Source: Clostridium sp. (lineage in GTDB: Bacteria; Bacillota; Clostridia; Clostridiales; Clostridiaceae). From it: a DNA stretch of 49,801 nucleotides. The stretch spans positions 1 through 49,801 of the forward strand of contig JALEZF010000098.1 in the NCBI GenBank assembly GCA_022773025.1. The letters are read 5' to 3'. The translations under genes were made by a program, and so were the position numbers. A model generated the notes under the pieces. The model made no database searches, was not told where the DNA came from, and worked only from the letters and a program-made list of their open reading frames with translations. Numbering within the stretch: the stretch's first letter is position 1; each line of letters starts with the position of its first letter. Of the stretch, positions 8,865-48,810 are shown in pieces.

Positions 8865-9782
8865 TTAGAACAACAATGTTGATGTTAGATGAGCACTTCC
8901 ATCTTCGTAAACCTCTATTTCATTTCCTCCAAACATAAACTTTGAACCTACTGGGAATCCCTTTGCCATAAGTGCATCAGATACCATGATGCTATATTCA
9001 GGTCCCTTAGCCATAAAGAAATTGTATAAAGCTGCAGGTGTTGAATGATTTCCATCACATATAATCTCTCCATACATTCCCCTAATCCTATACGCTGCTC
9101 CAACTAATCCATTTTGACGATGGTTGAAAGGTGTCATTCCATTGTATACATGAGTCTCAGACCTAGCTCCATGAGCAAAAGCCATAACTGCTTCCTCATA
9201 AGTAGCCGCTGAATGTCCAACACTAACCACTACCCCATTTACAGTTAAATAATCGGTCAAATTGTATTCATCATCTGTTTCTGTGGCCATAGTCACATAT
9301 TTTATAAGACCTTTGGCAGCTTTTTGATAATGCTTAAACTCTTCAACTGTAGGCTTCACTATATACTGCTCAGGTTGAGCTCCTTTATAAATCATATCAA
9401 GATACGGACCTTCAAAGTGTACTCCTAATATCTCAGCGCCTTCGTATCCTTCCTCTGCTACTTTTGCTACATTGCTTACCGCTTTCGTAAGAACTTCTTT
9501 ACTTTGAGTTATTGTTGTTGGAAGTAATGCTGTAACGCCTTCCTTAACTATATTTTTTGTCCACTTCCTAAGCCCTTCTTCATCGGCATCATTTATGTCA
9601 AATCCATAGGCACCATGACAGTGAATATCTATAAATCCTGGAACTATTCTTTTATTTCCATAATCCTCACTTACAGTTTTTTCATTGTATTTATAAATAT
9701 TAGATATTTTATTATCATCAATCTCTATTTGAGCTGGAACAAATTGATCTGCAATCCAAACCTTTTTACTTTGTATTATCAT
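8865..9782 (-). CDS. nagA: N-acetylglucosamine-6-phosphate deacetylase, C-terminally truncated
   Basis: A 305-residue NagA-like amidohydrolase; normal length is about 380-390. Metal and active-site marks are present: HCHGAYGFD (about residue 54), HFEGPY, GHSAATYEEA, ETHVYNG, CDGNHS and the catalytic aspartate in VSDALMAKG (about 268). The reading frame ends abruptly after GSAHLTS with TLLF and a stop. The final 75 or so residues (end of the barrel and part of the beta-sandwich) are missing. The sequence directly after the stop is an unrelated hydrophobic frame, then the broken aldolase, consistent with one deletion joining two genes. NagA removes acetate from GlcNAc-6-P or GalNAc-6-P. Activity of this form is doubtful. 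AGGAGG precedes the ATG. Confidence 0.8.
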   Translation of the reverse strand: MIIQSKKVWIADQFVPAQIEIDDNKISNIYKYNEKTVSEDYGNKRIVPGFIDIHCHGAYGFDINDADEEGLRKWTKNIVKEGVTALLPTTITQSKEVLTKAVSNVAKVAEEGYEGAEILGVHFEGPYLDMIYKGAQPEQYIVKPTVEEFKHYQKAAKGLIKYVTMATETDDEYNLTDYLTVNGVVVSVGHSAATYEEAVMAFAHGARSETHVYNGMTPFNHRQNGLVGAAYRIRGMYGEIICDGNHSTPAALYNFFMAKGPEYSIMVSDALMAKGFPVGSKFMFGGNEIEVYEDGSAHLTSTLLF

Positions 9783-9945: not shown

Positions 9946-11121
9946 ATGAATATTTTCAATATCAACGAAGAAGAAATGAAAAACACCTCATCAACTTTCA
10001 CTTTAAATGAAATTTACCAACAACCTGCCACTTGGAAAAAGACTTGCAATCAAATTAAAGAAAATAAGGATTCAATCCAAAAGTTTATAGACCAAGTAAT
10101 CTCTTGTGAAGATTATGATGTTATTCTTACAGGGGCCGGTACAAGCGAATTTGTAGGAAATGCTTTATACTCTTATCTAAACAAATCGCTAAACTATAAA
10201 GTTAAATCTTATGCCACAACTGATATAGTCGCTACTCCTGAAAATTACTTATCAAAAACAAAGCCAACTTTACTTATAAGCTTTGGTCGTTCTGGAAACT
10301 CACCAGAGTCAATTGGAGCTGTAGATGCAGCTGAAGCAGTATGTGACAATTTGTACAACCTATTTATAACTTGTAATAAGAATGGAGCTTTATCAAAGAG
10401 AGCGGAAGAAACTAATCACTGCTATGCTATAAATTTAACTGATGAAACTCACGACCAATCTTTTGCTATGACATCAAGTTTTACAAATATGTACTTAGCA
10501 GCTTATTTATGCTTCAATTTAAGCTCAATAAATAATAATATTTCTATAATAGATAAAATTTGTGAAGCAACTCAAGACTTCTTAGATAATAACTACACGG
10601 CTGCACGTCAAATAGTTGAAGAGTATGATTTTCAAAGAATAGTTTACCTTGGAAGCAATGCTTTGAAGGGTATAGCACAAGAATCATCATTAAAAATGCT
10701 TGAACTAACAGCAGGTAAGGTTGTTACTATGTATGATACTCCATTAGGATTTAGACATGGCCCTAAGTCAATAATAGATGATACTACCTTAACAGTTGTA
10801 TATGTCAGTGATGATGAGTATACAAGAAAATATGAGCTTGATTTAATAAAAGAAATAAGCGGTCAAAGAAAAGGAAACAAATTAGCAGTTGTATATAATG
10901 GTGAATGTGAAGATATAAAATCTTTAGCTGATTACTCCTTCTCTTATGATTCAGTATCTAACGCTGACAACATAGAACTTGGACTTGCTTACATCACTTT
11001 TGCTCAAACTTTAGCAGTATTAAAATCTTTAGCTATTGGCTTAACTCCTGACAATCCATGTCCTTCTGGAGAAGTTAATCGTGTAGTTAAAGGCGTTACA
11101 CTATATCCATATAAAGCTTAA
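9946..11121 (+). CDS. agaS: AgaS family SIS-domain sugar isomerase/deaminase
   Basis: A 391-residue protein with two SIS (sugar isomerase) domains. The first has GAGTSEFVG and SFGRSGNSPES (about residues 65-120); the second has YLGSNALKGIAQESSLKMLELTAG and FRHGPKS (about 235-280). Length and the RHGPKS motif fit AgaS, the galactosamine-6-phosphate deaminase/isomerase of GalNAc and galactosamine use. The start has a weak GGGGG box 9 bases upstream. It is divergent from the truncated nagA and is followed by a terminator. It appears intact although its usual partners around it are broken. A GlmS-like glucosamine-6-P role is less likely because no glutaminase domain is present. Confidence 0.9.
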   Translation: MNIFNINEEEMKNTSSTFTLNEIYQQPATWKKTCNQIKENKDSIQKFIDQVISCEDYDVILTGAGTSEFVGNALYSYLNKSLNYKVKSYATTDIVATPENYLSKTKPTLLISFGRSGNSPESIGAVDAAEAVCDNLYNLFITCNKNGALSKRAEETNHCYAINLTDETHDQSFAMTSSFTNMYLAAYLCFNLSSINNNISIIDKICEATQDFLDNNYTAARQIVEEYDFQRIVYLGSNALKGIAQESSLKMLELTAGKVVTMYDTPLGFRHGPKSIIDDTTLTVVYVSDDEYTRKYELDLIKEISGQRKGNKLAVVYNGECEDIKSLADYSFSYDSVSNADNIELGLAYITFAQTLAVLKSLAIGLTPDNPCPSGEVNRVVKGVTLYPYKA

Positions 11122-11189
11122 TCAATATAAGAAACAGTCCCATTTTATTGCTCCATTCATGTATTTGGATGGGGCAAATCTTTCATTAG

Positions 11190-11246
11190 GCAAAAGGATT
11201 ATTGAAGGGTTAGCGTAAAGCGCCTGATTCAATAATCCTTTTTACT
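11190..11246. terminator. intrinsic terminator after agaS
   Basis: AAAGGATTATTGA pairs with TTCAATAATCCTTTTT around a GC-containing loop. Confidence 0.8.
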
Positions 11247-11421
11247 TGATTAAATAATAAAGCATTAAAGTTAATGCTAATGGAATCATTTTTGGTAATA
11301 TTCCATCCAATATATTTTATATAATTATTGGAGATTCTCCATTTGCAATTTCGTTTGCCAAAGCTGTTCCACCATAGTTAGAAGTTAAATCTGTATATTG
11401 AGCACTTATATTAGATTCCAT
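11242..11421 (-). pseudogene. PTS EIID (mannose family) remnant
   Basis: The frame begins with ATG at 11421 behind a GGAGGAGATGA box and overlaps the end of the EIIC frame, as EIIC and EIID genes do. It has two in-frame TAA stops. The second part, LDGILPKMIPLALTLMLYYL, resembles the C-terminal helices of mannose-family EIID. Most of the roughly 270-residue protein is missing. It is a leftover of a GalNAc-type PTS. Confidence 0.6.
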
Positions 11422-11874
11422 CTTCGTCATCTCCTCCTTGTACTGCTACACCAGCATAGCTTTTTATTTTTACATTAGTTTGGAAGTCATAGACAGCTAT
11501 AGCTACTCCTATTAATGCTACTATTAATAATGCTGATCCTGATAATCCTTCTATCTTTCCTATAATTGTTGTAACGGCAAATCCTGCAAAGTAAATTCCC
11601 CATAATTCTTTAGATAACATTATACGTAATAATATAGCGAATCCTACTTAACGCATCATTCCACCAGCTTCACTTAAACCGTTCATGAACCAATCATATT
11701 TTAATGATAATTCAGATAACCAAGTACCAGCTGCACTACCTACAATTACTCCAAGAACTACTACTCTGAAAAGAATAAACCTAGAGCAGCCATTACTTCA
11801 AAGTTAAACTTTACAATACCTGATTGATTTCCTTCTGCCGCATACTTGTCGGCTTTTGACATTAATGGTGACAT
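11411..11874 (-). pseudogene. PTS EIIC (mannose/sorbose family) remnant
   Basis: The last clean frame (11411-11620) reads LSKELWGIYFAGFAV, then GKIEGLSGSALLIVALIGVA and YDFQTNVKIK, ending GGDDEDGI. This is the C-terminal end of a GalNAc-type mannose-family EIIC. An in-frame TAA (about 11646-11650) follows an AGGMMR-like stretch. Further upstream the match continues in another frame after a frameshift, up to SPLMSKADKYAAEGN near 11870. The N-terminal 100 or so residues are absent. The transporter is dead by at least three lesions. Confidence 0.75.
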
Positions 11875-12041
11875 AATTGTAAATAAAAACGTTACACAGT
11901 ATTGACATATTAAATTGTATTGTTCACCTTCATTTTAACAAAAAGCTTATATTTACATTTTATTGTTCATATTTTCCAATAATTTGATAAATAAAAAGTG
12001 TAAATTCATCTGTTTTGTAATTTTACATATTTCGCTTATTC

Positions 12042-12071
12042 TTTACACTCCAATTTCAAATATTGTATAAT
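12042..12071 (+). promoter_or_regulatory. promoter of the AraC-family gene
   Basis: TTTACA, 18-base spacer, TATAAT, about 100 bases before the ATG. Nothing else was recognised between 11875 and 12174. Confidence 0.55.
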
Positions 12072-12174
12072 ATATACACCAAAATAGTTAGAATTAGTTG
12101 AATTATATTTTTATTTTTATATTCTATATCTCATAGATTTGTGAAAATTTTTATATTAAAGAGGTGATTAGGTT

Positions 12175-13344
12175 ATGTATGACAAAACGTCAAGTGCACA
12201 TTTTAGAAAATTCGGATCTATATACGACGAACCTATATCAACAGAAGATAGCAACTTAATCCGAAAAAAAGTTGTTACTAATGACAAAACTATATCTAAT
12301 ATGTACCATTTTTCTTGCCCAGTATATGTAGAACTCATCGATGGTATGGCTTCTATATTAATAGGTAATTCTTTAAATGATGAGCTAAAATTATTTGCTA
12401 TTCATAGGTATTTAAGGATTAATCCTAATGTATATTTCAATATTATTTCAATGACAGGAGAGACTTCTTGCTATTTCATTATTCCATCAGACTATCAACT
12501 CCAAATAGAGTTTTTAAATCCACCTTATGTATACAACAGAATACTATCTACTATCAGCATTCCTGAGATAATCGCCTATTATTACACTATAAAAAGCCCC
12601 AATTACAAATTTAAAGGTGAGCGCCATAATCTTTATGAACTTACCTTTATCGATAATGGAACTTTAAATACAACTGTAGATGGTGTTGACTACACCTTAA
12701 ACTCCTTTGATTTAATGATTTACGGCAAAAATCAATTTCATACCCAATCAGTAATCAATGAGTTTTCCTGCTCTTACCTAACTGTAATGTTTGATATGGA
12801 GTGTGATGATGCCAGCAAGATTTGCAATAAGATCTTCCACTGTAAGAAGGAGTTATATGATGCTGTAAAAACCTTTGCTAGCGATATTTCTTCCACTATA
12901 CCTTATTCCAAAAACCTTACTTTAAATCACTTTCATGAAATTATTGTAAGACTGTTTCAATATGATTATTTAAAACTGGATGAATCTAAACCATCTACTG
13001 AAGTGCAACAATATTTTCAGGACGAGCTTCTAAAAAATATTCTTGATTACATAGAGAAGATGACATACGAACCAATTACAATTGAAGAACTCTGTCATAG
13101 ATTTTCTATTTCTAGGTCATCCCTTCAAACATTATTTAAAAATAATTTGAAGATATCCCCTAAAAAATATATCAATGAATTAAAGCTCTCCAAAAGTAAA
13201 CAGCTTATAAAGGAAAACAAATATACCATAAGTGAAATAGCCTTTATGCTTGGTTTCAATTCAATTCACTATTTTTCAAGGACATTTACTCAGCATTATG
13301 AAATAAGTCCTAGTGAATATGCTAAAACTGTGTTCAAACCTTGA
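12175..13344 (+). CDS. AraC family transcriptional regulator
   Basis: A 389-residue regulator. The C-terminal 100 residues hold the two AraC helix-turn-helix motifs: TIEELCHRFSISRSSLQTLF, then SEIAFMLGFNSIHYFSRTF followed by ISPSEY. Before that lies a cupin-like sensing region (about residues 150-260), with a further N-terminal segment of about 140 residues of unknown type. GAGGTGAT lies 8 bases before the ATG. It lies next to the amino-sugar genes and a broken GalNAc-type PTS and could be their regulator. That is inference from position. Confidence 0.85.
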   Translation: MYDKTSSAHFRKFGSIYDEPISTEDSNLIRKKVVTNDKTISNMYHFSCPVYVELIDGMASILIGNSLNDELKLFAIHRYLRINPNVYFNIISMTGETSCYFIIPSDYQLQIEFLNPPYVYNRILSTISIPEIIAYYYTIKSPNYKFKGERHNLYELTFIDNGTLNTTVDGVDYTLNSFDLMIYGKNQFHTQSVINEFSCSYLTVMFDMECDDASKICNKIFHCKKELYDAVKTFASDISSTIPYSKNLTLNHFHEIIVRLFQYDYLKLDESKPSTEVQQYFQDELLKNILDYIEKMTYEPITIEELCHRFSISRSSLQTLFKNNLKISPKKYINELKLSKSKQLIKENKYTISEIAFMLGFNSIHYFSRTFTQHYEISPSEYAKTVFKP

Positions 13345-13351
13345 TTTATCA

Positions 13352-13396
13352 AAATAAAATGCACATCCTATATGCAGGATGTGCATTTTTTATTTT
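13352..13396. terminator. bidirectional intrinsic terminator
   Basis: AAAATGCACATCCT pairs with AGGATGTGCATTTT, then TTT; it lies between convergent genes. Confidence 0.9.
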
Positions 13397-13447
13397 AACA
13401 TGAATTTCAGTAATTGATATTTTATGTTTTATGTTATAAGAAATATA

Positions 13448-14806
13448 TTATTTATTTACAAGCTCTTTATTTTTAGAAAAATAATCTTGAGTTTGCTTAC
13501 GAACTTGAGGGAATAAAACAATTAATGCAATCATATTTGGTATTACAACTAGTCCCATTGCTAAATCTTGAATAGTCCAAACAAGACTTATCTTAGTGAT
13601 TGCCCCTATTATACATAGGAAAGGGAATATAAACTTACAAACTGATGTAACTTTTGGTCCAAATGCATATGTAAAGCTCTTTGCTGCATTAAACCATTGT
13701 CCCATAAGTGTTGTGAAACAGAATACAAGTAATGCAAATGTTGCTGCATGCTTTAATGGAGCCCATACTGTTCCAAAAGCTTCTATTGCCATTACAGTTG
13801 CTGGTGCACCTGAAGTATAAACTCCTGTTACTCCAATAACTAATGCTGTTATAGTACATACTATAATAGTATCTAAGAATACTTCTGTAACTCCAGTGAT
13901 TCCTTCTTCTACAGGATGAGAAACTATTGTAGATCCATGTGCAAATGGTGCTGTACCTTCTCCAGCCTCATTTGAGTACATACCACGAGTTATACCAAAT
14001 TGCATTGCTCTAGCAATTACAAATCCACCAGTACCACCTGCAACAGCTTCAAATGAAAATGCTTCTCTGAAGATAGTTGCGAAAACTCCTGGTACGTTTT
14101 GTATGTTTAATAAGATAACAAGGATTCCTACAACTATATAGAATATTGACATTACTGGAACTAAAGTCGTAGCTATATTTGCAACTCTCTTTAATCCACC
14201 TAAAGTAATAGTCATTAAGAAACCTATTAATAATGTTCCTGTTAACCATGTTGGTACACTATAGTTTGAACTAAGTATCCCTGAGATAGTATTAGATTGA
14301 ACTAAGTTCGCTCCCATCATCTTAATACACATAAGAACAGCTATTACAACACCTAGCCAAGGCATTTTTAATCCATCTCTTATGTAGTACATAGGTCCAC
14401 TTAAAAGATTTCCTTCTGAATCCTTACCACGATATAGTTGTGAAAGAACAATTTCTCCATACTTTAATGCCATACCAAAGAATGCAGCAAACCACATCCA
14501 AAATATAGCTCCAAGGCCTCCTGCTACTATAGCAGTGGCAACACCTACGACGTTTCCTCCACCAACATTTCCAGCAAGAGTAACCATCATAGCCTTAAAT
14601 GACGAAATAGACCCTTGACCTTTTTCACTATTTCTTGACTTAAAAGAGTCGATTAATGTTTTTTTCATTATAAATCCAAAATGTCTTACTTGAATAAATC
14701 CATTTGTAAATGTGTATAGAACACCAAGACCTAATAGTACAAATACAAGCCACTTACCCCATACCCATGAATTAATAAGGGCAAGTATATTCTCTAAATT
14801 TTCCAT
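13448..14806 (-). CDS. alanine/glycine:cation symporter (AGCS family)
   Basis: A 452-residue membrane transporter with about 10-11 helices. Family signatures are AGNVGGGNVVGVATAIVAGG (about residues 76-95), SGPMYYIRDGL, and the RGMYSNEAGEGTAPFAH block (about 273-289) that shapes the amino-acid site. It imports alanine, glycine or a similar small amino acid with sodium or protons. An in-frame start 10 codons upstream (14836) exists. The ATG at 14806 is preferred because it gives the normal N-terminus (MENLENILALI) and follows a GGAGAG box, at a slightly long spacing. A second, broken member of the family lies at 20.8-22.0 kb. Confidence 0.9.
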   Translation of the reverse strand: MENLENILALINSWVWGKWLVFVLLGLGVLYTFTNGFIQVRHFGFIMKKTLIDSFKSRNSEKGQGSISSFKAMMVTLAGNVGGGNVVGVATAIVAGGLGAIFWMWFAAFFGMALKYGEIVLSQLYRGKDSEGNLLSGPMYYIRDGLKMPWLGVVIAVLMCIKMMGANLVQSNTISGILSSNYSVPTWLTGTLLIGFLMTITLGGLKRVANIATTLVPVMSIFYIVVGILVILLNIQNVPGVFATIFREAFSFEAVAGGTGGFVIARAMQFGITRGMYSNEAGEGTAPFAHGSTIVSHPVEEGITGVTEVFLDTIIVCTITALVIGVTGVYTSGAPATVMAIEAFGTVWAPLKHAATFALLVFCFTTLMGQWFNAAKSFTYAFGPKVTSVCKFIFPFLCIIGAITKISLVWTIQDLAMGLVVIPNMIALIVLFPQVRKQTQDYFSKNKELVNK

Positions 14807-35292: not shown

Positions 35293-36468
35293 TTATATTA
35301 TTTCTGAGCTATTGATTAAAGAATATATATCTTTATAATACCTCATATTTACATCAATATTAAGAGGATTCTTTCTTAATGATAAAATAGGCTTATTTAA
35401 TTCAGAAGCATATCTTAATAATTCTATATTTTCCTTATTTAATTCTCCTATAGTAAATCCACTATCAATAACAGATTTAGAGTTTTCAATAGCCTCTCTA
35501 GCTTCATTAAATGTATTTATATCTATATATGAAAAACTATCTACACTTATTACATTTGCATCTAAACCACTTGCTACATAAAAATCTATATCATTCTCAT
35601 GAAGAATTCCAGTTGTAAAGTTTATCCCCTTCTTATGTAATGCCCTATAACAAAGCGTTCCTGAACCACTTCCCCCTAGTACGAATACTTTTGACTCATT
35701 ACTTGTACCTTTTAATTCAATACTTCCTAAAAGCATATTAAAACTACCAGATTCAATATCATAAAGTTCTCTAATTGTCTTATCATCAAGAATATCTTCT
35801 GGGAAACCACACTTTGCAATCTTATTATCTTTTACTAATATAATTATATCTGCTAATTTTATAGCAAGGTCTACCTCATGAAGTGATAATACTACCGTTA
35901 TTCCTTGTTCTACTGCCATCTTTCTTAATATACTTAAAAGTTCAAGTTTATATCTTATATCAAGGTATGATGTTGGCTCATCAAGAACAATTACTTCTGG
36001 CTGTTGACATATAGCTCTGGCTAACATAACTCTTTGTTTTTGTCCATCACTTAATGTATTAAATTCTAAATCTTTAAGTTCATAGGCAGATACGATTTTA
36101 AGGGAATTATCAATTATGCAATTATCTTCTTCCGTAAGCTTACCAAAGTGATTTGTATAAGGATAACGTCCTGTAGCAACAATTTCTCTACAAGTCATAA
36201 GATCTGGAGAGATTCTATCTGTAAGAACTACTGATATTTTTTTTGCAGTTTCTTTACCATTAAGTCTTTTTATATCTTGATCATCTATATACACACTTCC
36301 ATCTATTGTACTAAGATGCTTAGTTATGCTTTTTAATATTGTAGATTTTCCCGATCCATTAGGTCCTAAAAGGCATAAAATATTTCCTTTTTCTATACCA
36401 ACATTAATATCATCTATTAATATCTTTCCATGATATCCTACTGCTAAATGTTCAGTTTTAAAGTACAT
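35293..36468 (-). CDS. iron/cobalamin-type ABC ATPase with extra C-terminal domain
   Basis: A 391-residue protein. Residues 1-255 are a BtuD/FecE-type ATPase with Walker A GPNGSGKST (about 35-43), signature LSDGQKQRVMLARA (about 138), Walker B VIVLDEPTSYLD and switch His (SLHEVD). The remaining 130 residues are a separate Rossmann-like domain opening with VFVLGGSGSG, then a repeated alpha/beta pattern (VISVDSFSYID, VIDSGFTIGELN, NKPILSLRK). The usual family length is about 255-270. A similar C-terminal extension is known from archaeal corrinoid/iron transporter ATPases, with unclear function. It is the last gene of the riboswitch-led ABC operon, 2 bases after the permease stop. It energises uptake by the permease. 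Confidence 0.88.
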   Translation of the reverse strand: MYFKTEHLAVGYHGKILIDDINVGIEKGNILCLLGPNGSGKSTILKSITKHLSTIDGSVYIDDQDIKRLNGKETAKKISVVLTDRISPDLMTCREIVATGRYPYTNHFGKLTEEDNCIIDNSLKIVSAYELKDLEFNTLSDGQKQRVMLARAICQQPEVIVLDEPTSYLDIRYKLELLSILRKMAVEQGITVVLSLHEVDLAIKLADIIILVKDNKIAKCGFPEDILDDKTIRELYDIESGSFNMLLGSIELKGTSNESKVFVLGGSGSGTLCYRALHKKGINFTTGILHENDIDFYVASGLDANVISVDSFSYIDINTFNEAREAIENSKSVIDSGFTIGELNKENIELLRYASELNKPILSLRKNPLNIDVNMRYYKDIYSLINSSEII

Positions 36469-36470
36469 TA

Positions 36471-37487
36471 TTATCTCTTACTCCTTCTCTTAATCATAAG
36501 CCAAATTACTATTGGCGCTCCAAATATTGATGTCACCGTACTTATAGCCAGCTCTGTTGGTGAAAAAACAGTCCTTGCTATAAGATCACATATGAGTGTA
36601 AAACTTCCTCCAAATAAAAATGTTGCTGGAACAAGTATGGCAGATGAGGCTGTTTTAAACATCAATTTTGTTATATGTGGAACTGCAATACCTACAAATG
36701 ATATTGGTCCTGCAAATGCCGTAACACAGGCTGATAAAATACTAGATAAAAATACCAATAAGAATCTAAACCTTTTAATATTAATTCCCATGCTTTTTGC
36801 ATAATTTTCTCCAAGAAGATATGCATTTAATGGTTTCACTAAAGAAAATACAAATAAAACTGTAGGTATTATAATTATCACCGCTACTTTTAATATATCC
36901 CAAGTCACTCCCGAGAAGCTTCCCATTGACCACATTGTAAAATTACTTACCTTATTGCTTTCTGCAAAAGTTATCATAAAGTCTGTACCAGCACTACATA
37001 TATAACCTATCATCATTCCAATAACTAGCAACATAGATATATTTTCAACTTTTTTTGACACTAAAAGTACTAATATCATAGATAACATAGCACCTACAAA
37101 AGCTGCTAAAAACATTGTGTATGGATTTAAAAATTTGTTTGCAACTTCTAATGTTAAAAGCATAAATATTCCTACAAAAAGCTTTGCTCCTGATGATATA
37201 CCTAGAACAAAGGGTCCTGCAATTGGATTTTTAAAAAATGTCTGAAGTAAAAAGCCAGATATAGATAGCGCTCCTCCGAAAATAGCAGCAGCTATAAGTC
37301 TAGGAAGCCTTATCTTCCACAATACGCTATATTCCATAGTACCTACCATATTTCTAGTAAAAACTATATTTAATATTTCTTTTAAGCTTAAATCTACAGA
37401 TCCTGTATTAATATTTAAAAACATTGCTCCAAAAAGAAGCAAGATTAAAATTACAAACATTATTTGTGTTCTAATACGTTTAGACAT
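36471..37487 (-). CDS. FecCD/BtuC-type ABC permease
   Basis: A 338-residue permease with about ten helices. Family signatures: IRLPRLIAAAIFGGALSISG (about residues 59-78), NPIAGPFVLGISSGA and the ATPase-coupling loop FAGPISFVGIAVPHI (about 253-267). FecCD permeases move iron-siderophores, heme or cobalamin. The upstream cobalamin riboswitch argues for a corrinoid or related compound, though this is inference. An attenuator-like hairpin lies between the lipoprotein gene and this gene. AAGGAG precedes the ATG. Confidence 0.9.
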   Translation of the reverse strand: MSKRIRTQIMFVILILLLFGAMFLNINTGSVDLSLKEILNIVFTRNMVGTMEYSVLWKIRLPRLIAAAIFGGALSISGFLLQTFFKNPIAGPFVLGISSGAKLFVGIFMLLTLEVANKFLNPYTMFLAAFVGAMLSMILVLLVSKKVENISMLLVIGMMIGYICSAGTDFMITFAESNKVSNFTMWSMGSFSGVTWDILKVAVIIIIPTVLFVFSLVKPLNAYLLGENYAKSMGINIKRFRFLLVFLSSILSACVTAFAGPISFVGIAVPHITKLMFKTASSAILVPATFLFGGSFTLICDLIARTVFSPTELAISTVTSIFGAPIVIWLMIKRRSKR

Positions 37488-37586: not shown

Positions 37587-38759
37587 TTATTTACTTAATG
37601 GAAAATAGAATTCTGATGCCTTAGCTTCACTAATCGGTGTATGTATAGCTTCTGTCATATCTTCTATTATTTCTCCCATTCTATCAGCTGATTGCCAATA
37701 GTGAGATGCCAATCCCCATACTCTACCTTCTTTAATAGCTTTAATATCTGCTAAATAATCACCATATTTTAATATATCACTTATTGTTTTTACAGATGGA
37801 TCACTAGTTGTATCATATATAATAACATCAGCATCTATAGCATTCTTATAAAATTCTTCAACTGTCATCTTACTTGTACCACCCTTATTTGGTTCTACAT
37901 TTGCGAAAGAGTAATTTCCACCAGCGAGTTCAACCATCTTTGCACCATAATCGCCACCGTTTCTTACATAAACAGTTCCCTTAGATACGAATATTTGAAC
38001 TACTTTAGGCTTGTCTTTATTTTCATTTTCCTTACCTACTGCAAGAACTTTTTTCTCTTGCTCATTGAATTTTTCTGCTGCAACGTCATCTTTTCCAAAA
38101 ACTGCACCAAATAACTTCACCCATTCAACTTTTCCAAGTGGATGACTTTCTTCATGTTCACGAATAGCAATCCAAGGTATTCCTAATTCATCAAATTTAG
38201 CAGTAACCTCATCCCCACCGTGAGTTGATTTTGTTGTTACAAATATAACTTGAGGATTAGCTTCTTTAATTTTTTCATAATCTGGTGCCGTATTTTTGCC
38301 CACATATAATGTTTTTCCGCTCTCCATTTGGCTTTTAATTTGGTCCATATGCCATGATTTTTTATCAGTTGTTACCATTGTTACCTTATCAAGTTCATCA
38401 ATAGCTTTTACAGAAGTAGCATGAGTAGTTGAAAAAACTCCAGCTCTTTCTATAGGTTGCTTAAGTACTGTCATTTCCTTTTCAGTTTTTGGTGCTTCCT
38501 TACCTTCTGGTACAATCATTATCTTTCTTTCACTACCATCAGTTATAACTTTAAATCCATCCTCGTAGTAATCTACTTGAAAATTATTTGCATACTTTAG
38601 ATCAAGAGTCTTCTCAATCTTTAATCCTTTTAATTCTGATTCTTTTGTAACAGTCTGCTTATCTGCATCACCTGTTTTGTTTGTACAACCAACAGCTACC
38701 ATGGAAATAGACACTGTTGTCATAAGTATTGCTACTAGTTTTTTAATTTTTTTGTTCAT
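37587..38759 (-). CDS. substrate-binding lipoprotein of BtuF/FepB type
   Basis: A 390-residue lipoprotein: Lys-rich start, hydrophobic stretch and lipobox VAVGC with Cys25 as lipid anchor. The mature part is a helical-backbone binding protein (Peripla_BP_2). Typical segments: NPQVIFVTTKS (about residues 168-178), VEWVKLFGAVFG, VRNGGDYGAKMVELAGG, and DADVIIYDTTSD. An unusual N-terminal extension (about 40-120) makes it longer than BtuF. It would capture a corrinoid, heme or siderophore outside the membrane. A cobalamin riboswitch with terminator precedes it, which favours a cobalamin-related ligand. Confidence 0.87.
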   Translation of the reverse strand: MNKKIKKLVAILMTTVSISMVAVGCTNKTGDADKQTVTKESELKGLKIEKTLDLKYANNFQVDYYEDGFKVITDGSERKIMIVPEGKEAPKTEKEMTVLKQPIERAGVFSTTHATSVKAIDELDKVTMVTTDKKSWHMDQIKSQMESGKTLYVGKNTAPDYEKIKEANPQVIFVTTKSTHGGDEVTAKFDELGIPWIAIREHEESHPLGKVEWVKLFGAVFGKDDVAAEKFNEQEKKVLAVGKENENKDKPKVVQIFVSKGTVYVRNGGDYGAKMVELAGGNYSFANVEPNKGGTSKMTVEEFYKNAIDADVIIYDTTSDPSVKTISDILKYGDYLADIKAIKEGRVWGLASHYWQSADRMGEIIEDMTEAIHTPISEAKASEFYFPLSK

Positions 38760-38929: not shown

Positions 38930-39120
38930 AGCATTAAAAGTGCCGTACATAGTAGGTTTTCTGACTTATGCTTAAAACTATCTTTTCCTTCCCCATGATA
39001 CTGGGTGGATTAATAAAGATAGTTTGATAATTTAAATTATCAAGCAAATACAGCAGCGGCTCTGTGTAGGATTCTAACCTAACTTCCCTCAACTTTATAT
39101 AAAAGTCCCTATGTATTTAA
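38930..39120 (-). promoter_or_regulatory. cobalamin riboswitch (ABC operon)
   Basis: On minus: AGGGAAGTTAGGTTAGAATC, CTACACAGAGCCGCTGCTGT, a B12-box-like CCCAGTATCATGGGGAAGG, and ATAAGTCAGAAAACCTAC near the 3' end. These follow the order of the cobalamin aptamer, with a variant core (AGAGCCGCTGCTGT instead of CAGCCCCCGCTACTGT). A TTGACA box lies upstream at 39178-39183, and a 14-bp hairpin (39190-39223) overlaps the nifB stop. Confidence 0.88.
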
Positions 39121-39221
39121 TATTAAGTTTTTTACAACTATATATCTTGTCTCTTAATTTTAATAATATAAATATTTTGTCAAGTAGTCAACATAATTAT
39201 TACTTTTTTGTAATAATTATG

Positions 39222-40034
39222 TTAAATATGTCTTTTTTCTAAAGCTGGTATTCCTATAGCATCAGCTCTACATTGGTTGCAACATTCGAACTGATTCATA
39301 TATTTCTTTGCTTCTCTTCTAATTTCTATAATTTCATCTTTATTCAAAGCCGTAATGCCCTTTAACATTCCCGCTGGAATTACAGAATTTATATTCATAA
39401 CAAATACTCCTAATTCTTTTAACTTCTTAGAAATATCCGTTATTTCTTTATGATTTATGTCAGGTACAACAACAGTATTAACTTTTACTGTCATTCCCTT
39501 TTTAACTGCCAATTCAATTCCTTTAAGCTGATTATCTAATAGTACTTTTGCACCCTCTTCACCTTTATATGTTATATCTTCGTAATTTACAAAGCTATAA
39601 AGTTTTGCACCAGTTTTAATATCAATAGTATTAAGTGTCACTGTCAATGCCTCCACACCTGCATCATAAAGCCTATCAACATATTTAGGGAGTAATAATC
39701 CGTTTGTACTGACACATTTTATTTTATCTTTGTATTTTTCATTTAAAGCCTCAAGCACTTGAAATGTCTCTTCATTCGCTAGTGGATCTCCAGGTCCTGC
39801 TATTCCAATAACTTTAATCACTGGATTCTCATTTAATGTTTTTTCTGCATATTCAATAGCTTCATGAACATCCAAAACACGCGATGTAACTCCAGGTCTA
39901 GACTCATTGGCACAATCATATTTTCTATCACAATATACACACTGTACATTACATTTTGGAGCAACTGCAAGATGCATTCTTCCATATTTAGAATGAGACT
40001 TATTATTAAAACATGGATGTTTATCTATATTCAT
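39222..40034 (-). CDS. nifB: NifB-like radical SAM protein, short form
   Basis: A 270-residue radical SAM protein matching NifB: HPCFNNKSHSKYGRMHLAVA at the start, the SAM cluster motif CX3CX2C (Cys28, Cys32, Cys35), DCANESRPGV (about 40-49), GIAGPGDPLANEET (about 98-111), NSVIPAGMLKG, and the C-terminal CCNQCRADAIG (about 252-262). NifB fuses two [4Fe-4S] clusters and inserts a carbide to make the 8-iron NifB cofactor, the precursor of nitrogenase cofactors. The NifX-like C-terminal domain of many NifB proteins is absent. Its start lies 14 bases inside the NifH-like gene behind GAGGTAAGAG. It is the last gene of the nitrogenase-like operon and implies a NifB-type cluster in the product. Confidence 0.93.
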   Translation of the reverse strand: MNIDKHPCFNNKSHSKYGRMHLAVAPKCNVQCVYCDRKYDCANESRPGVTSRVLDVHEAIEYAEKTLNENPVIKVIGIAGPGDPLANEETFQVLEALNEKYKDKIKCVSTNGLLLPKYVDRLYDAGVEALTVTLNTIDIKTGAKLYSFVNYEDITYKGEEGAKVLLDNQLKGIELAVKKGMTVKVNTVVVPDINHKEITDISKKLKELGVFVMNINSVIPAGMLKGITALNKDEIIEIRREAKKYMNQFECCNQCRADAIGIPALEKRHI

Positions 40035-40842
40035 CTCTTACCTCTTCAAAGAAGCTATCAAGCTCATCTTCTGTCATTGATTGTGGTATTGTACCTATAT
40101 TATCTTCCCATATATTTTCAGCAATTTTTCTTATACTTTGTGCAGCTATTCCCTCTGTATCATATTCAACTAAAGGAATTCGTTTAAGCTCAGCCATAGT
40201 TACAGCCTTATCCATAGGCATTCTTCCTATGACATTAGCATTAACTCTTCTAGCAAAGTTTTCTACAATATTTGAGTTAGTTACTACACTTCTTTCATTA
40301 AGTATTATTCCACCAAGTCTAACTTTTCCCTTTTGACCATACTTCTCTATACATGTACAGATATTATTTGCTGCATATAATGCCATGTAGTCGCAGGTAG
40401 TAACTATGTACACCCTTTGCGCAAAACTTTCCTTTATGGGCATGGCAAATCCACCACATACAACATCCCCTAAAACATCATAAATTACCATGTCATACTT
40501 GTCTTCATCTATTATGTCTAACTCTTCCATCTTATTCATAGCTGATACAACGCCTCTACCTGCACACCCATCCCCTGGCCTCGGACCTCCAGTTTCTACA
40601 CAATCTACTCCCTTATATCCCTTAAAAACTATATCTTCTTCTGAAAGATCTTCTCCTTTATCAAACATTGTATTTAGCACAGTAGGTATTTTTTTACCAT
40701 ATACATTTCTTGTAGAATCAGCCTTAGGATCACATCCAACAAGTAAAACTCTTAATCCTTTTTCTGCTAATGCACAAGCTATATTTGATGATATAGTGGA
40801 TTTACCTATTCCACCTTTTCCATATATACAAATCGACTTCAA
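40021..40842 (-). CDS. NifH-like nitrogenase reductase family ATPase
   Basis: A 273-residue NifH-family protein. P-loop YGKGGIGKST (about residues 7-16), switch region VGCDPKADST (35-44), and the two cysteines that would hold a [4Fe-4S] cluster between subunits: Cys93 in GDGCAGRGV and Cys129 in GDVVCGGFAMP. The Arg after Cys93, target of ADP-ribosylation in NifH, is kept. It would pass electrons to the alpha/beta-like partner at the cost of ATP. It starts with TTG (40840-40842), overlapping the beta-like stop as TTGA, with GGGAG upstream. It differs from true NifH (GGPRPGDGC instead of EPGVGC) and belongs with nitrogenase-like reductases. Confidence 0.93.
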   Translation of the reverse strand: MKSICIYGKGGIGKSTISSNIACALAEKGLRVLLVGCDPKADSTRNVYGKKIPTVLNTMFDKGEDLSEEDIVFKGYKGVDCVETGGPRPGDGCAGRGVVSAMNKMEELDIIDEDKYDMVIYDVLGDVVCGGFAMPIKESFAQRVYIVTTCDYMALYAANNICTCIEKYGQKGKVRLGGIILNERSVVTNSNIVENFARRVNANVIGRMPMDKAVTMAELKRIPLVEYDTEGIAAQSIRKIAENIWEDNIGTIPQSMTEDELDSFFEEVRDEYR

Positions 40843-42014
40843 TTGTACAAAAACTCCCTTCTATTTGTTCCTGTCATTGCTCCATTTAGAATATCTTCAA
40901 CAAGATATAAAACTCCTTCATATCCTATATATGACTTACTGCTTATAGATACTGTATCAAAAACTGGATATGTATACCTTATTAGTGGCAAGTCAAGCTC
41001 CATAGCTATATCTCCTTCATAGGAACTTCCAAATACCATAACAGCATTACTATTTTTTATATCATCTAAAATTTTCTCTTTTTCCTTTATTTCACCCAAA
41101 TTATAAAAGTCAGTATCAAGGCCTAGCTCTCCTTGAAGCATATCTGATAGCCCTTGGCCCCTAGTACTTTCTCCAACTACGCATACTGGCAGCCCATATA
41201 AGGAATGTAGATATTCATACACAGCTTTAAGTCTATTAGTTGCATATTCTTCTCCAGATTTAATTTCATCTTCCATATCTATATTAAATAATTGAGCTAT
41301 GCTCCTTATGAAGTTAGTTGTACCACATATACCATATGGATAATCAACGACTATATATGGTATATTAAATTTTTTCTCCATAAGCTTTCCTATTTGTTCA
41401 AAGCCTCTTAAAACCACGTTATACTCTGCTCTTGGAGCATTTATTATATTTTCATAGCTGTCATAGCTTAATACACTATTTATATGAATCTTATTTTTAA
41501 ACATATTTTTTATAGATGCTATGTCACTTTCTGCCATAAAATCATCCGAAAACATTCCTATCAAATTTATGGAGTCTTTTACCCTTTCTCCATCTACCAT
41601 GTTTTTTACTAAGGATTTTATTCCAGCCATATATCCCTTTATGATATCTCCTTTAAATCCAGCTGAAAGTATTGGTATTATTGGTATATCCGTTTCTATA
41701 TTTTTAATAACACCATTTATATCATCATTCATTATTTCAGGGGTACATCCAGTTACTATAAATAAGGCTTGTGGTTTATACTCTTCTAAACACAGTTTTA
41801 TAGCATCTTCTAGAGCTTTATCTCCTCCATAAATAATGTCATTTTCATATATTACTGAACAAGCTTGCTTTACATCATCTAAATGCGATGGTATATGCAT
41901 GGCCATAGTTCCCCAGTGACATCCAACCGTAGAGTGAATGAGTACTACCGTATTTTTTATTCCAATAACGCTTCTATAAGCTCCAAATATCATACATGAT
42001 GTTGAAGGTCTCAT
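40839..42014 (-). CDS. nitrogenase component 1 beta-like subunit (NifK-like)
   Basis: A 391-residue nitrogenase component 1 family protein. All three beta-side P-cluster cysteine positions can be aligned by eye: Cys7 in STSCMIFGA, Cys32 in STVGCHWG and Cys90 in VTGCTPEIMNDDI. The C-terminal region YPVFDTVSISSKSYIGYEGV matches the NifK-type FPIFDR...GYRG block. It is shorter than NifK (about 520), lacking N- and C-terminal extensions. The frame opens at 42050. The ATG at 42014 is preferred because AAGGAGG lies 8 bases before it, inside the last codons of the alpha-like gene, 2 bases after whose stop it begins. Confidence 0.9.
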   Translation of the reverse strand: MRPSTSCMIFGAYRSVIGIKNTVVLIHSTVGCHWGTMAMHIPSHLDDVKQACSVIYENDIIYGGDKALEDAIKLCLEEYKPQALFIVTGCTPEIMNDDINGVIKNIETDIPIIPILSAGFKGDIIKGYMAGIKSLVKNMVDGERVKDSINLIGMFSDDFMAESDIASIKNMFKNKIHINSVLSYDSYENIINAPRAEYNVVLRGFEQIGKLMEKKFNIPYIVVDYPYGICGTTNFIRSIAQLFNIDMEDEIKSGEEYATNRLKAVYEYLHSLYGLPVCVVGESTRGQGLSDMLQGELGLDTDFYNLGEIKEKEKILDDIKNSNAVMVFGSSYEGDIAMELDLPLIRYTYPVFDTVSISSKSYIGYEGVLYLVEDILNGAMTGTNRREFLYN

Positions 42015-42016
42015 AA

Positions 42017-43543
42017 TTATTTCCTCCTTAAAGTCCACAAATTTATCCATGTTTTATGAGATGCAGCTATATTCTCATCCTTTAACATTGGATAATATGT
42101 TTCATCATAATCAAATCTAGAAATTATAAGTCTTGTACCCTTTTTAGCCGCTTCAACTCTCTTTGCCATGGTCACTACAAGTTCCTTGAACTTAAGATAG
42201 CTATTAACATAATTATAATGTAAACTATGAAGTGATTTTGCTTCTGGTATGTCGGATAACAACTTCTTTCCATTTATAACGAAATCTACATCTTCCACAA
42301 CTTTTCTTATTTCACTAGAATCCTTATTATCTATAATAACTGCATCACAACCTGCAATTTCTAATGCTATCTTTAAATTATTTCTCATTTTTTCAAGAGT
42401 CTCTTGTGATATATCTTTATCTTTAACTACCTTTTCATTCATTTCTACCATTACATAAGATAACTTCATCCCAAATTCATTATTATAGTATTTAATCAAA
42501 TATGGAACTTCATTATATGACCTTGAATACAGAGCATATTTATATTGTGATAATATTCCTTTAGCTTCATTTAATTCATCTTCTATTTCTTCATATTTTT
42601 TTGATAATACCTTTTTCATTTCTTCAGACTTATTTAATCTTTCTGCTATAAGCATGTAAAATTTTTCTATTCCTTTTATACCCAATGTATCTGTTGGACT
42701 ATGAAAATGAATATAATCTGTACCAAATTTATTTTGCATTTGTTTTGCCCATCTTAATCTACGTACAATATTAAGCTTAGCTTTAGGTGCATTTTCAATC
42801 TCCTTTAAAGATGCACTAGGTATTAAAGTATTTATTTTTATGTCAGCTAATGATAGATATTCTTTAATATCCTGAAGACAATCATCTCCCCCGTAGCCCC
42901 ATCCAAAACTCTCTATATTTACAAGATTATCTTCTATAGTTTGAGGCTTCATTACCTCATTTACTATAGTACACATCACTTCATTAAAGCCACATCCATT
43001 ATGACTGTATTCCTTCTTTGTTTTATTTCCTATAACTGCATCAACTCTCTGAGTGATATTATTCTTAGCTTGACTTTTATCTATATGTGAAAAAACTTGA
43101 GATTTAATTCCTATAACTCGACATTTTTCATTTTCTTTATATTGTTCAACAACTGTTTTAATATCACAATTTATCATGTCGGAACATGTAGTAGGAAGTA
43201 CAAAAATAATTTCTGGATTATATTTTTCTAAAACTTTATCAATGGTATATTTTAGTTTATCTTCACATCCATATATCACTTCTTTTTCAGTAAGATCTGT
43301 AGATTCTATATTAAAAAAAGGCATATGTTTTCTTCTAATGGCATGCCTATAATGATAAGCACAACCTCTTGGACCATGTAGAATAGTTATAGAATTTCTT
43401 ATTTCACTTACCGCACCTATATTACCAGATATTTTTCCATTTAATCCATTGTGATGTAATACACTAGTTGGATACATACCAAAACTAAGTTTTTCTTTAA
43501 ATCCATTTCTAAGATACATACTTCTCCCCCATTGATTTTTCAT
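42017..43543 (-). CDS. nitrogenase component 1 alpha-like subunit (NifD-like)
   Basis: About 508 residues. Family marks: ILHGPRGCAYHYR (Cys61, equivalent of NifD Cys88), VIYGCEDKL (equivalent of VFGGDKKL) and LPTTCSDMINCDI (Cys120, equivalent of Cys154). The NifD Cys62 equivalent is an Asn. The cofactor-binding Cys275 region (NLVHCYRSMNYI in Azotobacter) reads NIVRRLRWAKQM, without Cys. The His442 region (MHSWDYSGPYHGF) has a plausible match, LHSLHYNYVNSYLKF (about 438-452). Alignment is by eye. The start is uncertain: GTG 43558, ATG 43543 or ATG 43519 (GGGGGAG 4 bases before it). First gene of the operon behind a cobalamin riboswitch. Confidence 0.88.
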   Translation of the reverse strand: MKNQWGRSMYLRNGFKEKLSFGMYPTSVLHHNGLNGKISGNIGAVSEIRNSITILHGPRGCAYHYRHAIRRKHMPFFNIESTDLTEKEVIYGCEDKLKYTIDKVLEKYNPEIIFVLPTTCSDMINCDIKTVVEQYKENEKCRVIGIKSQVFSHIDKSQAKNNITQRVDAVIGNKTKKEYSHNGCGFNEVMCTIVNEVMKPQTIEDNLVNIESFGWGYGGDDCLQDIKEYLSLADIKINTLIPSASLKEIENAPKAKLNIVRRLRWAKQMQNKFGTDYIHFHSPTDTLGIKGIEKFYMLIAERLNKSEEMKKVLSKKYEEIEDELNEAKGILSQYKYALYSRSYNEVPYLIKYYNNEFGMKLSYVMVEMNEKVVKDKDISQETLEKMRNNLKIALEIAGCDAVIIDNKDSSEIRKVVEDVDFVINGKKLLSDIPEAKSLHSLHYNYVNSYLKFKELVVTMAKRVEAAKKGTRLIISRFDYDETYYPMLKDENIAASHKTWINLWTLRRK

Positions 43544-43544
43544 A

Positions 43545-43578
43545 TTAAAAAAACCCACCTAAAAGGTGGTTTTTTTTA
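43545..43578 (-). terminator. riboswitch-controlled terminator (nitrogenase-like operon)
   Basis: On minus, AAACCACCT, loop TTT, AGGTGGGTTTTTTT. It ends at the start codon region of the alpha-like gene, and its stem also contains an AGGTGG sequence, so both transcription and ribosome access could be affected. Confidence 0.8.
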
Positions 43579-43734
43579 TTTTTAAATAGTATTTTTACTC
43601 AATAGTATAAGTTATTACCTTAAACTTAATAGTTCATCTGGCTTTATAACTTATAATCTAAATTTAATACACTAATATAAAACTATACTTTCTAGACTAT
43701 TATCTCCCACCGAAATAAATAGCTTATTTTCTTT

Positions 43735-43915
43735 ACCGGCAGGTCTCCTGACTTATGGCTAATAACCTTTGTTGTACCTTCCCAGTATCAATACCAGTGG
43801 TATTATCACAACATCGTCACCATTTTACAGTAGCGTGGGCTGTTATAGATTTTCACTATATTCCCTTTTAATATATTTATTAAAACTTAGTTCTATATAA
43901 ACATAACCAGCAAAT
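43735..43915 (-). promoter_or_regulatory. cobalamin riboswitch (nitrogenase-like operon)
   Basis: On minus, the classic aptamer order: AAAAGGGAATATAGTGAAAA, then ACAGCCCACGCTACTGTAAA, the B12 box ACCACTGGTATTGATACTGG, GGGAAGG, and the 3' piece ATAAGTCAGGAGACCTGCCG. A terminator lies about 160 bases downstream, just before the first gene. Confidence 0.95.
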
Positions 43916-43928
43916 TCTATTTGTTTCC

Positions 43929-43958
43929 ATTATATTATATCTTGTTGTTTATTGTCAA
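43929..43958 (-). promoter_or_regulatory. sigma-A promoter of the nitrogenase-like operon
   Basis: TTGACA, 18-base spacer, TATAAT on minus, directly upstream of the riboswitch. A second TATAAT overlaps 5 bases nearer the -35 box. Confidence 0.8.
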
Positions 43959-48477: not shown

Positions 48478-48810
48478 TTATTCGTGAAAATCCCCTTTCC
48501 CCTTTAATTCGGCATTAAGCCCTTGCTTATTTAAAAGCAAAGGCTTATTTTTTATCTTGTATATTATTAAATTACATTCCTCTGCTGGTATAATTTTAAG
48601 TTCTTCATCAAAGCTTCCCACTCCACTAAGTGTATAGTCTTCTCCAGCAATAAATCCATCAATAGATGACACTGATTTTTTTACCATACTTATTTTAGTA
48701 TCTGACTGCTCTACTTTAAAACTAAAACTTCCTGCGAACTTATCATCTTTTTTTTCAATTATATTATAGATCCCAGCTTTCATATCATTGATATGGAAAT
48801 ACTTCCACAT
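48478..48810 (-). CDS. unknown small protein, first gene of the ECF operon, possibly disrupted at its start
   Basis: A 110-residue frame rich in beta-strand-forming sequence (FSFKVEQSDTKISM, GEDYTLSGVGSFDEELKIIP, CNLIIYKIKNKP). No signal peptide or membrane helix. Not recognised. The ribosome binding site AGGAG (48829-48833) is 18 bases from this frame's only ATG. The ATG at ideal distance (48821) opens a different frame that stops after 15 codons. In the 110-residue frame, coding-like sequence (EYEDGND) runs upstream to a TAA at 48838. This suggests a frameshift or 5' deletion. Its place between riboswitch and ECF genes hints at an accessory to cobalamin uptake. Confidence 0.5.
   Translation of the reverse strand: MWKYFHINDMKAGIYNIIEKKDDKFAGSFSFKVEQSDTKISMVKKSVSSIDGFIAGEDYTLSGVGSFDEELKIIPAEECNLIIYKIKNKPLLLNKQGLNAELKGKGDFHE

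Follow-up and report, generated by a model that had tools for sequence, protein, structure and literature searches.

The window analysed here, 49,801 nucleotides of contig JALEZF010000098.1 of a Clostridium sp. genome, carries on its minus strand an operon that encodes, in order, two nitrogenase component 1-like subunits (D, alpha-like, and K, beta-like), a NifH-like reductase (H) and a NifB-like radical S-adenosylmethionine (SAM) protein, all behind a cobalamin riboswitch (Table 1). D and K represent a separate nitrogenase-like family that is rare in the samples searched and looks undescribed. We suggest, tentatively and as a possibility rather than a probability, that the D-K complex uses ATP to reduce a corrinoid, or some other metal chelate, that the cell imports, and that it is made under riboswitch control for corrinoid salvage. 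Nitrogenase-like enzymes act on protochlorophyllide, chlorophyllide, Ni-sirohydrochlorin diamide, methylthio-alkanes and isethionate; to our knowledge, only a few such reactions are known.

An earlier note on this DNA had described an alpha/beta/NifH/NifB-like set behind a cobalamin riboswitch, a terminator and a promoter, and all of these are present. The tight packing it reported is real in so far as the genes overlap (by 34, 4 and 14 nt for D/K, K/H and H/NifB); there are no 2-base gaps. D and K match PF00148 (E 2.4e-47 and 4.8e-71) and H matches PF00142 (E 6.3e-103). Against the curated NCBIfam models, H stays below the nifH cut-off (TIGR01287, 356.0 vs 394.35 bits), and D and K stay below the D, K, E and N cut-offs of Nif, Vnf and Anf (the best is nifE, with 109.3 bits for K and 87.4 for D vs 505.1). 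The longest D frame opens at a GTG (43558) within the terminator; the start is likely the ATG at 43519, 4 nt after GGGGGAG, giving 500 residues. In the leader, the aptamer matches RF00174 over positions 1-189 at 104.5 bits (gathering score 31.5, E 3.3e-25), and the promoter is one of two exact TTGACA-N18-TATAAT matches in the window, where 0.13 are expected. The stretch of the small hairpin folds at -7.7 kcal/mol (z -2.4); its loop, GGUGG (43711-43707), is by reading complementary to CCACU (43800-43796) of the aptamer, for which it is a possible P13/L13 kissing partner, and is complementary also to the 5' arm of the terminator, whose stretch folds with a z of -2.8. The only antiterminator candidate seen by eye is a 5-bp GGUGG/CCACC alternative, and free folding yielded the terminator instead. 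An aptamer followed by a terminator ahead of the first codon is the usual layout of a cobalamin OFF switch, and because the leader has this order we infer that it acts as one.

In all, 18 D-K loci from 17 genomes came out of a K search, a D search and one named scan. Besides the window they comprise ten loci from Clostridia and seven from genomes of the Phascolarctobacterium order, called Acidaminococcales-type below (loci are labelled L and genomes G, with G000 the host genome and G001 a genome of the same genus). K occurs in at least 8 of 206 genomes of the family and D in at least 7 of 225 of the order; members of the family were found in at least 6 of 63 genomes of the order of G233 and in at least one of 398 in a phylum sample, namely the window's own. 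Profile scores are two-peaked, with members at 288-778 bits and other nitrogenase-type proteins at 188 or less. We built a 93-row tree by a quick method with Nif, alternative nitrogenase, PDB methylthio-alkane reductase (Mar) and Bch sequences plus 47 rows that carry no label; names for the reference nitrogenases came from NCBIfam (the D of the alternative type passes the VnfD but not the AnfD cut-off, and its K passes neither K cut-off). The family contributes 15 rows, not 18, after exclusion of duplicates (L040, L041, L036 and the L097/L099 copies) and of short or broken sequences (L033, L067 K, L068 D, L086_3560 and L096_387). The 15 K rows form one clade (Shimodaira-Hasegawa-like approximate likelihood-ratio test, SH-aLRT, 99), as do the 15 D rows (100), and both lie outside Nif/Anf (100 on both sides), outside the Mar group (MarK 100, MarD 98) and outside the pairs that adjoin an alternative nitrogenase. 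Isr, Nfa, CfbD and group VI are absent from this tree, and the Bch rows have very long branches and an unsure placement; among the clades included, D and K group inside no characterised one, and to that extent the interpretation in the earlier note is supported. Within the Clostridia half, the window branches off first (91 and 86, not starred). A B12-riboswitch nitrogenase-like operon is the subject of no title or abstract start among the literature matches listed, most subscription journals being outside the coverage, and the matches listed in plasmid searches were all distant relatives, either of Nif/Bch type or unnamed members of nitrogenase component 1.

The active site sets the family apart as well. 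All three P-cluster cysteines of K are invariant (11/11, with a spot check in agreement). In D, the equivalent of NifD Cys88 (MarD Cys91) is present in 15/15, the position of NifD Cys62 (MarD Cys66) is glycine in 15/15, and the column of NifD Cys154 (MarD Cys158) holds no cysteine in 15/15; the window and L031 proteins may nevertheless keep a Cys154-type cysteine, since a cysteine sits one residue further on. Because D thus keeps one and K three P-cluster-type cysteines, the bridging cluster is probably a [4Fe-4S]. The position of NifD Cys275 (MarD Cys270), the residue that binds the 8-iron cofactor in nitrogenase and in Mar, falls within a deletion of 3-4 residues and is never a cysteine (0/15). 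All 15 D proteins also have an insert of about 24-27 residues in the cofactor-facing loop, starting with an invariant S-H-x-D-K and finishing with C-G; the corresponding NifD loop (Gln191-His195) faces the iron-molybdenum cofactor. Predicted models have a mean predicted local distance difference test score (pLDDT) of 72.7 for D and 80.7 for K, much of the insert being below 50, and the VIA-align Z scores of the D model are tied (NifEN 22.1, Mar 21.8, NifD 21.4, dark-operative protochlorophyllide oxidoreductase, DPOR, 21.1).

These features bear on the suggestion in the earlier note that the operon provides a B12-independent bypass, in which methylthio compounds would be reduced to the methanethiol needed to make methionine whenever MetH is left without cobalamin. 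Riboswitches are known to govern B12-independent isozymes, and by reading the host has a MetH-like protein (L072). Nevertheless, the position of D and K outside the Mar clade (support 98-100), the want of equivalents of MarD Cys66 and Cys270 and of any cysteine in the Cys158 column, and the failure of any methionine or organosulfur gene to recur at the 18 loci (open reading frame lists read by eye) make the bypass quite improbable, and this part of the earlier note is not upheld. Single sulfur-type neighbours are a methionine gamma-lyase-like gene by L033 and an MsrA-like fragment after L043. Membership of D-K in Mar itself was considered and rejected on the clade and on Cys270 (0/15).

The NifB-like protein keeps all 10 Cys/His columns common to 11 aligned NifBs, including the radical SAM CxxxCxxC, HPC and C..CRADA motifs; position 251 is His in 8/11 and Cys in the window, and the last shared Cys is unaligned in L064. 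It scores below the curated TIGR01290 cut-off (289.5 vs 343.65 bits), and the match stops at model position 275 of 441, which we read as a missing tail. The protein is 47% identical to the annotated NifB of Chlorohelix. NifB adjoins D-K in 8/18 loci, namely all seven of Acidaminococcales type and the window, and in an alignment of only 11 rows those seven form a separate group from the window's, so that the NifB/D-K pairing may have arisen or been renewed twice. H adjoins D-K only in the window; in L068, L037 and L031 the distance between them is 4.0 to 8.9 kb. As D and K are the host's only PF00148 proteins and H its only strong NifH, NifB most likely serves the D-K complex there. The earlier note's self-contained set, with a NifB that retains the conserved residues, stands, yet its step from NifB to an 8-iron enzyme is weakened: with the Cys275 equivalent gone in 15/15, the presence of NifB in the operon does not settle whether D holds an 8-iron cluster. 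A more ambitious version of our proposal, a new nitrogenase-like class in which an ATP-driven reductase of imported corrinoids, switched on in cobalamin shortage and without the usual cofactor cysteine, binds an 8-iron cluster made by NifB with new ligands from the class-specific insert, seems to us rather unlikely.

The host genome (G000; 3.15 Mb, 114 contigs, 98.2% complete) contains exactly two PF00148 proteins, D and K, and one strong NifH, H, its other three matches being weak; G001 has no PF00148 protein. There are seven cobalamin riboswitches in G000. Two stand in tandem in L069 (G000:C78:1-13000; contig 9520-9706 and 10314-10502); that of L070 precedes an 826-residue exported protein, a DUF4430 protein and genes that by their starts resemble those of the window's energy-coupling factor (ECF) operon; that of L071 and L076 (G000:C92) precedes a BtuFCD-type importer, CbiG-C/CbiJ, CbiD, CbiET, CbiA, CbiB, a CobD-like protein and CbiC; the remaining two head the BtuFCD and ECF operons of the window. 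Since the six other riboswitches precede importers, exported proteins and corrin genes, the genes that share this control look like ones for corrinoid capture, uptake or synthesis. The large exported proteins that follow the tandem riboswitches (L069 703-9277) begin with one that has no family over its cut-off, then two DUF4430 proteins, and a fourth frame matches an alpha-toroid/cobalamin-binding family weakly (E 0.05). These proteins may capture corrinoids at the cell surface in the manner of transcobalamin. Five proteins match PF02310, four over the cut-off, and frames read by eye suggest that they include MetH, glutamate mutase and lysine aminomutase.

The main clue to function comes from the gene neighbourhoods. 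A FecCD-class permease (siderophore/heme/B12) lies within 5 kb of D-K in 13 of the 18 loci by raw count (window, L031, L032, L034-L039, L042, L043, L064 and L067). In L067, from another lineage, a cobalamin riboswitch of 101.5 bits heads a TonB receptor, FecCD, ATPase, FecCD, binding protein, D, K and NifB; in L068, related binding proteins lie within 5 kb of D-K. No such permease was found within 5 kb in L033, where D is cut to 110 residues, or on the 5-kb contig of L044. L033 (8854-10304), where K is nearly whole and the pair sits between hfq-like and methionine gamma-lyase-like genes, is apparently a decaying copy. In a permease tree of 16 rows, made without outside reference permeases and with an ATPase frame in the row of L042 (the real permease is at 12842-13924), the window permease pairs with the BtuC of the host's own cbi operon (82), and the Acidaminococcales-type (98) and most Clostridia permeases (100) are other groups; the link between D-K and importer was therefore probably formed more than once. 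We take the substrate to be probably not nitrogen gas but something imported, perhaps B12-like molecules. Among the options of the earlier note a corrinoid, tetrapyrrole or other scarce imported substrate is the one we favour, because importers of this class recur beside D-K.

Several observations weigh against this proposal. Only 2 of the 18 loci, the window and L067, have a cobalamin riboswitch; none of the other 16, some on contigs of 5-12 kb, has RF00174 at the gathering score. The K of L067 is split into two frames and the D of L068 is in two pieces; in L065 and L066 the place of FecCD is taken by a TonB receptor together with an Opp/Nik-type importer; and the BtuFCD-type importer of the window has a cobalamin riboswitch of its own. 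In a Foldseek search with the D model, NifD of C. pasteurianum ranks first (E 1.3e-18) and DPOR only 50th, and a simple enzyme of the DPOR kind is hard to square with the presence of NifB. A protein with helix-turn-helix (HTH) and PBP_like (Pfam) domains is encoded divergently from the importer in L039, another lies about 6.5 kb from D-K in L031, and in L038 an HTH regulator, assigned by resemblance of its start only, is again divergent from the importer; we take the HTH/PBP_like type to sense molybdate, and these regulators do not suggest corrinoids. An alternative-nitrogenase cluster lies within about 15 kb in 4/10 Clostridia loci (L031, L037, L038/G229 and L042/G231), shorter flanks having been read in the other six. 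This last association speaks for D-K as a NifEN-like scaffold or cluster carrier and not an enzyme; G000, however, has no other nitrogenase to mature, and we regard a scaffold as very improbable.

The same neighbourhoods could reflect general metal mobilisation, with D-K reducing imported complexes of iron, cobalt or other metals with metallophores to release the metal, and with the B12 control in the window mirroring cobalt or corrinoid demand. The importers beside D-K (TonB with Opp/Nik-type or FecCD importers in the Acidaminococcales-type genomes, FecCD importers in Clostridia) would suit such a role, as would AnfO and, by reading, tungstate-type ATP-binding cassette (ABC) genes near L031. 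Cobalamin riboswitches in two classes fit iron poorly, however, and such reductions are usually carried out by flavin or ferric reductases; we consider this explanation unlikely.

D-K could instead take part in making the corrin ring, for example by reducing cobalt-precorrin-6A. In favour of this are the homology of D-K to tetrapyrrole ring reductases and the number of PF00590 proteins, three in G000 (read as CbiET, RsmI and YabN/MazG type) vs seven in G001, where the four that G000 lacks lie within 6.4 kb (G001:C1:2879061-2885414); the low number may be a real loss or an assembly gap. Three findings count against the idea, which is extremely improbable: CbiJ is present in 13/15 genomes, G000 included; G001 has cbi genes without D-K; and G230 and G231 carry D-K with no CbiJ and with 0 and 1 PF00590 proteins, although both are metagenome-assembled genomes and a complete genome should have more than 0. 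On account of G230 and G231, D-K seems not to be tied to corrin synthesis. That D-K replaces a missing CbiJ was likewise rejected on the 13/15. G000 has late corrin genes (in L071 and L076), and its early corrin methylases seem absent or fall in an assembly gap.

In the mechanism we favour, scarcity of cobalamin would let the transcript through the riboswitch, and H, as Fe protein, would pass electrons to the D-K complex, whose bridging cluster, probably [4Fe-4S], would have one cysteine ligand from D and three from K. An 8-iron cluster for the complex or for its active site would come from NifB. D-K would then reduce a metal chelate delivered by the adjoining FecCD-class importer, here a corrinoid or other tetrapyrrole, in a salvage role that might, for example, make an imported or damaged corrinoid usable. 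Alternatively, the complex could be a corrinoid reactivator that drives Co(II) to Co(I) with ATP, for adenosylation or for inactivated corrinoid enzymes. Low-potential ATP-driven chemistry suits this step and the host has a corrinoid regulon; as NifB would not be needed and the known reactivators are unrelated, we find it distinctly unlikely. The operon is small, self-contained and B12-switched, and because the genome shows no other nitrogenase, gain or loss of function should be cleanly readable. It poses the questions of what NifB serves once the known cluster cysteine has been lost, and of what ties a nitrogenase-like enzyme to the uptake of B12 and metal chelates.

Table 1. Features of the operon and its neighbours in the window
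Feature	Position	Strand	Basis
Sigma-70-type promoter, TTGACA-N18-TATAAT	43929..43958	-	exact match
Cobalamin riboswitch aptamer	43721..43926	-	RF00174, full model
Hairpin with loop GGUGG	43696..43723	-	folding
Intrinsic terminator between aptamer and D	43546..43569	-	stem 43569-43555 and T tail
D, nitrogenase component 1 alpha-like, 500 aa	42017..43519	-	PF00148, family alignments
K, nitrogenase component 1 beta-like, 403 aa	40839..42050	-	PF00148
H, NifH-like ATP-dependent reductase, 273 aa, TTG start	40021..40842	-	PF00142
NifB-like radical SAM protein, 270 aa, no NifX-like tail	39222..40034	-	best NCBIfam match TIGR01290 nifB
Long perfect AT hairpin right after NifB stop, no T tail	39188-39225		z -3.7 for 126-nt folded stretch
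Second cobalamin riboswitch, ahead of importer	38934..39128	-	RF00174, 55.9 bits
BtuF-like substrate-binding lipoprotein	37587..38759	-	PF01497
BtuC-like FecCD permease	36471..37487	-	PF01032; best NCBIfam BtuC, below cut-off
BtuD-like ABC ATPase	35293..36468	-	PF00005; best NCBIfam corrinoid ABC ATPase, below cut-off
Third cobalamin riboswitch, precedes ECF-type operon	49153-49029		RF00174
Small 110-aa protein, first in ECF operon after third riboswitch	48478-48810		no family over cut-off

Two further observations concern the Acidaminococcales-type genomes. L068 has a CobN-like chelatase (10571-14287, over the TIGR02257 cut-off) beside D-K-NifB. A second, distant H-D-K nitrogenase-like set occurs in L068 (1-3792), L094 and L095; in L068 it is, by reading, followed by a FecCD-like frame and divergent from a MerR-like regulator.

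Among known systems, DPOR, chlorophyllide oxidoreductase (COR) and CfbCD share with D-K that no 8-iron cluster is reported, and the predicted K model is closest to DPOR by VIA-align. We know of no NifB partner for any of these enzymes. The window proteins also stay under all BchN, BchB, BchY and BchZ NCBIfam cut-offs and under those for CfbCD (TIGR03282 and NF033200; D 49.8 and K 43.3 vs 268.4, H 328.2 vs 402), and CfbD, unlike D-K, is a homodimer. In regulation and neighbours the operon resembles the uptake operons under cobalamin riboswitches (BtuFCD, TonB-BtuCDF), of which none with a nitrogenase-like enzyme is described among the matches listed. IsrBHDK has the same BHDK make-up and P-cluster-type cysteines of which one is in D (Cys88 type) and three are in K (PMC11423573); IsrB is reported there as BciD-like, whereas the window B has NifB residues. 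A D-K pair with the Isr cysteine pattern, an Isr candidate by that pattern only and not by comparison with a named Isr sequence, is found in L082 (G188:C1:4191500-4195600) and falls in the Mar/group IV clade, away from the window family. MarBHDK is similar in combining H, D and K of nitrogenase fold with a NifB-type radical SAM enzyme, and its 8-iron cluster is bound by MarD Cys270 and His429 (PMC12552129). By comparison, the window family forms a separate clade, has only part of the six P-cluster cysteines of Mar (K 3/3 in 11/11; in D, Cys91 in 15/15 and Cys66 in 0/15), and lacks in D the Cys270 equivalent and a cysteine in the Cys158 column; it has an insert in the active-site loop, and its setting is one of a B12 riboswitch and importers, not of sulfur genes.

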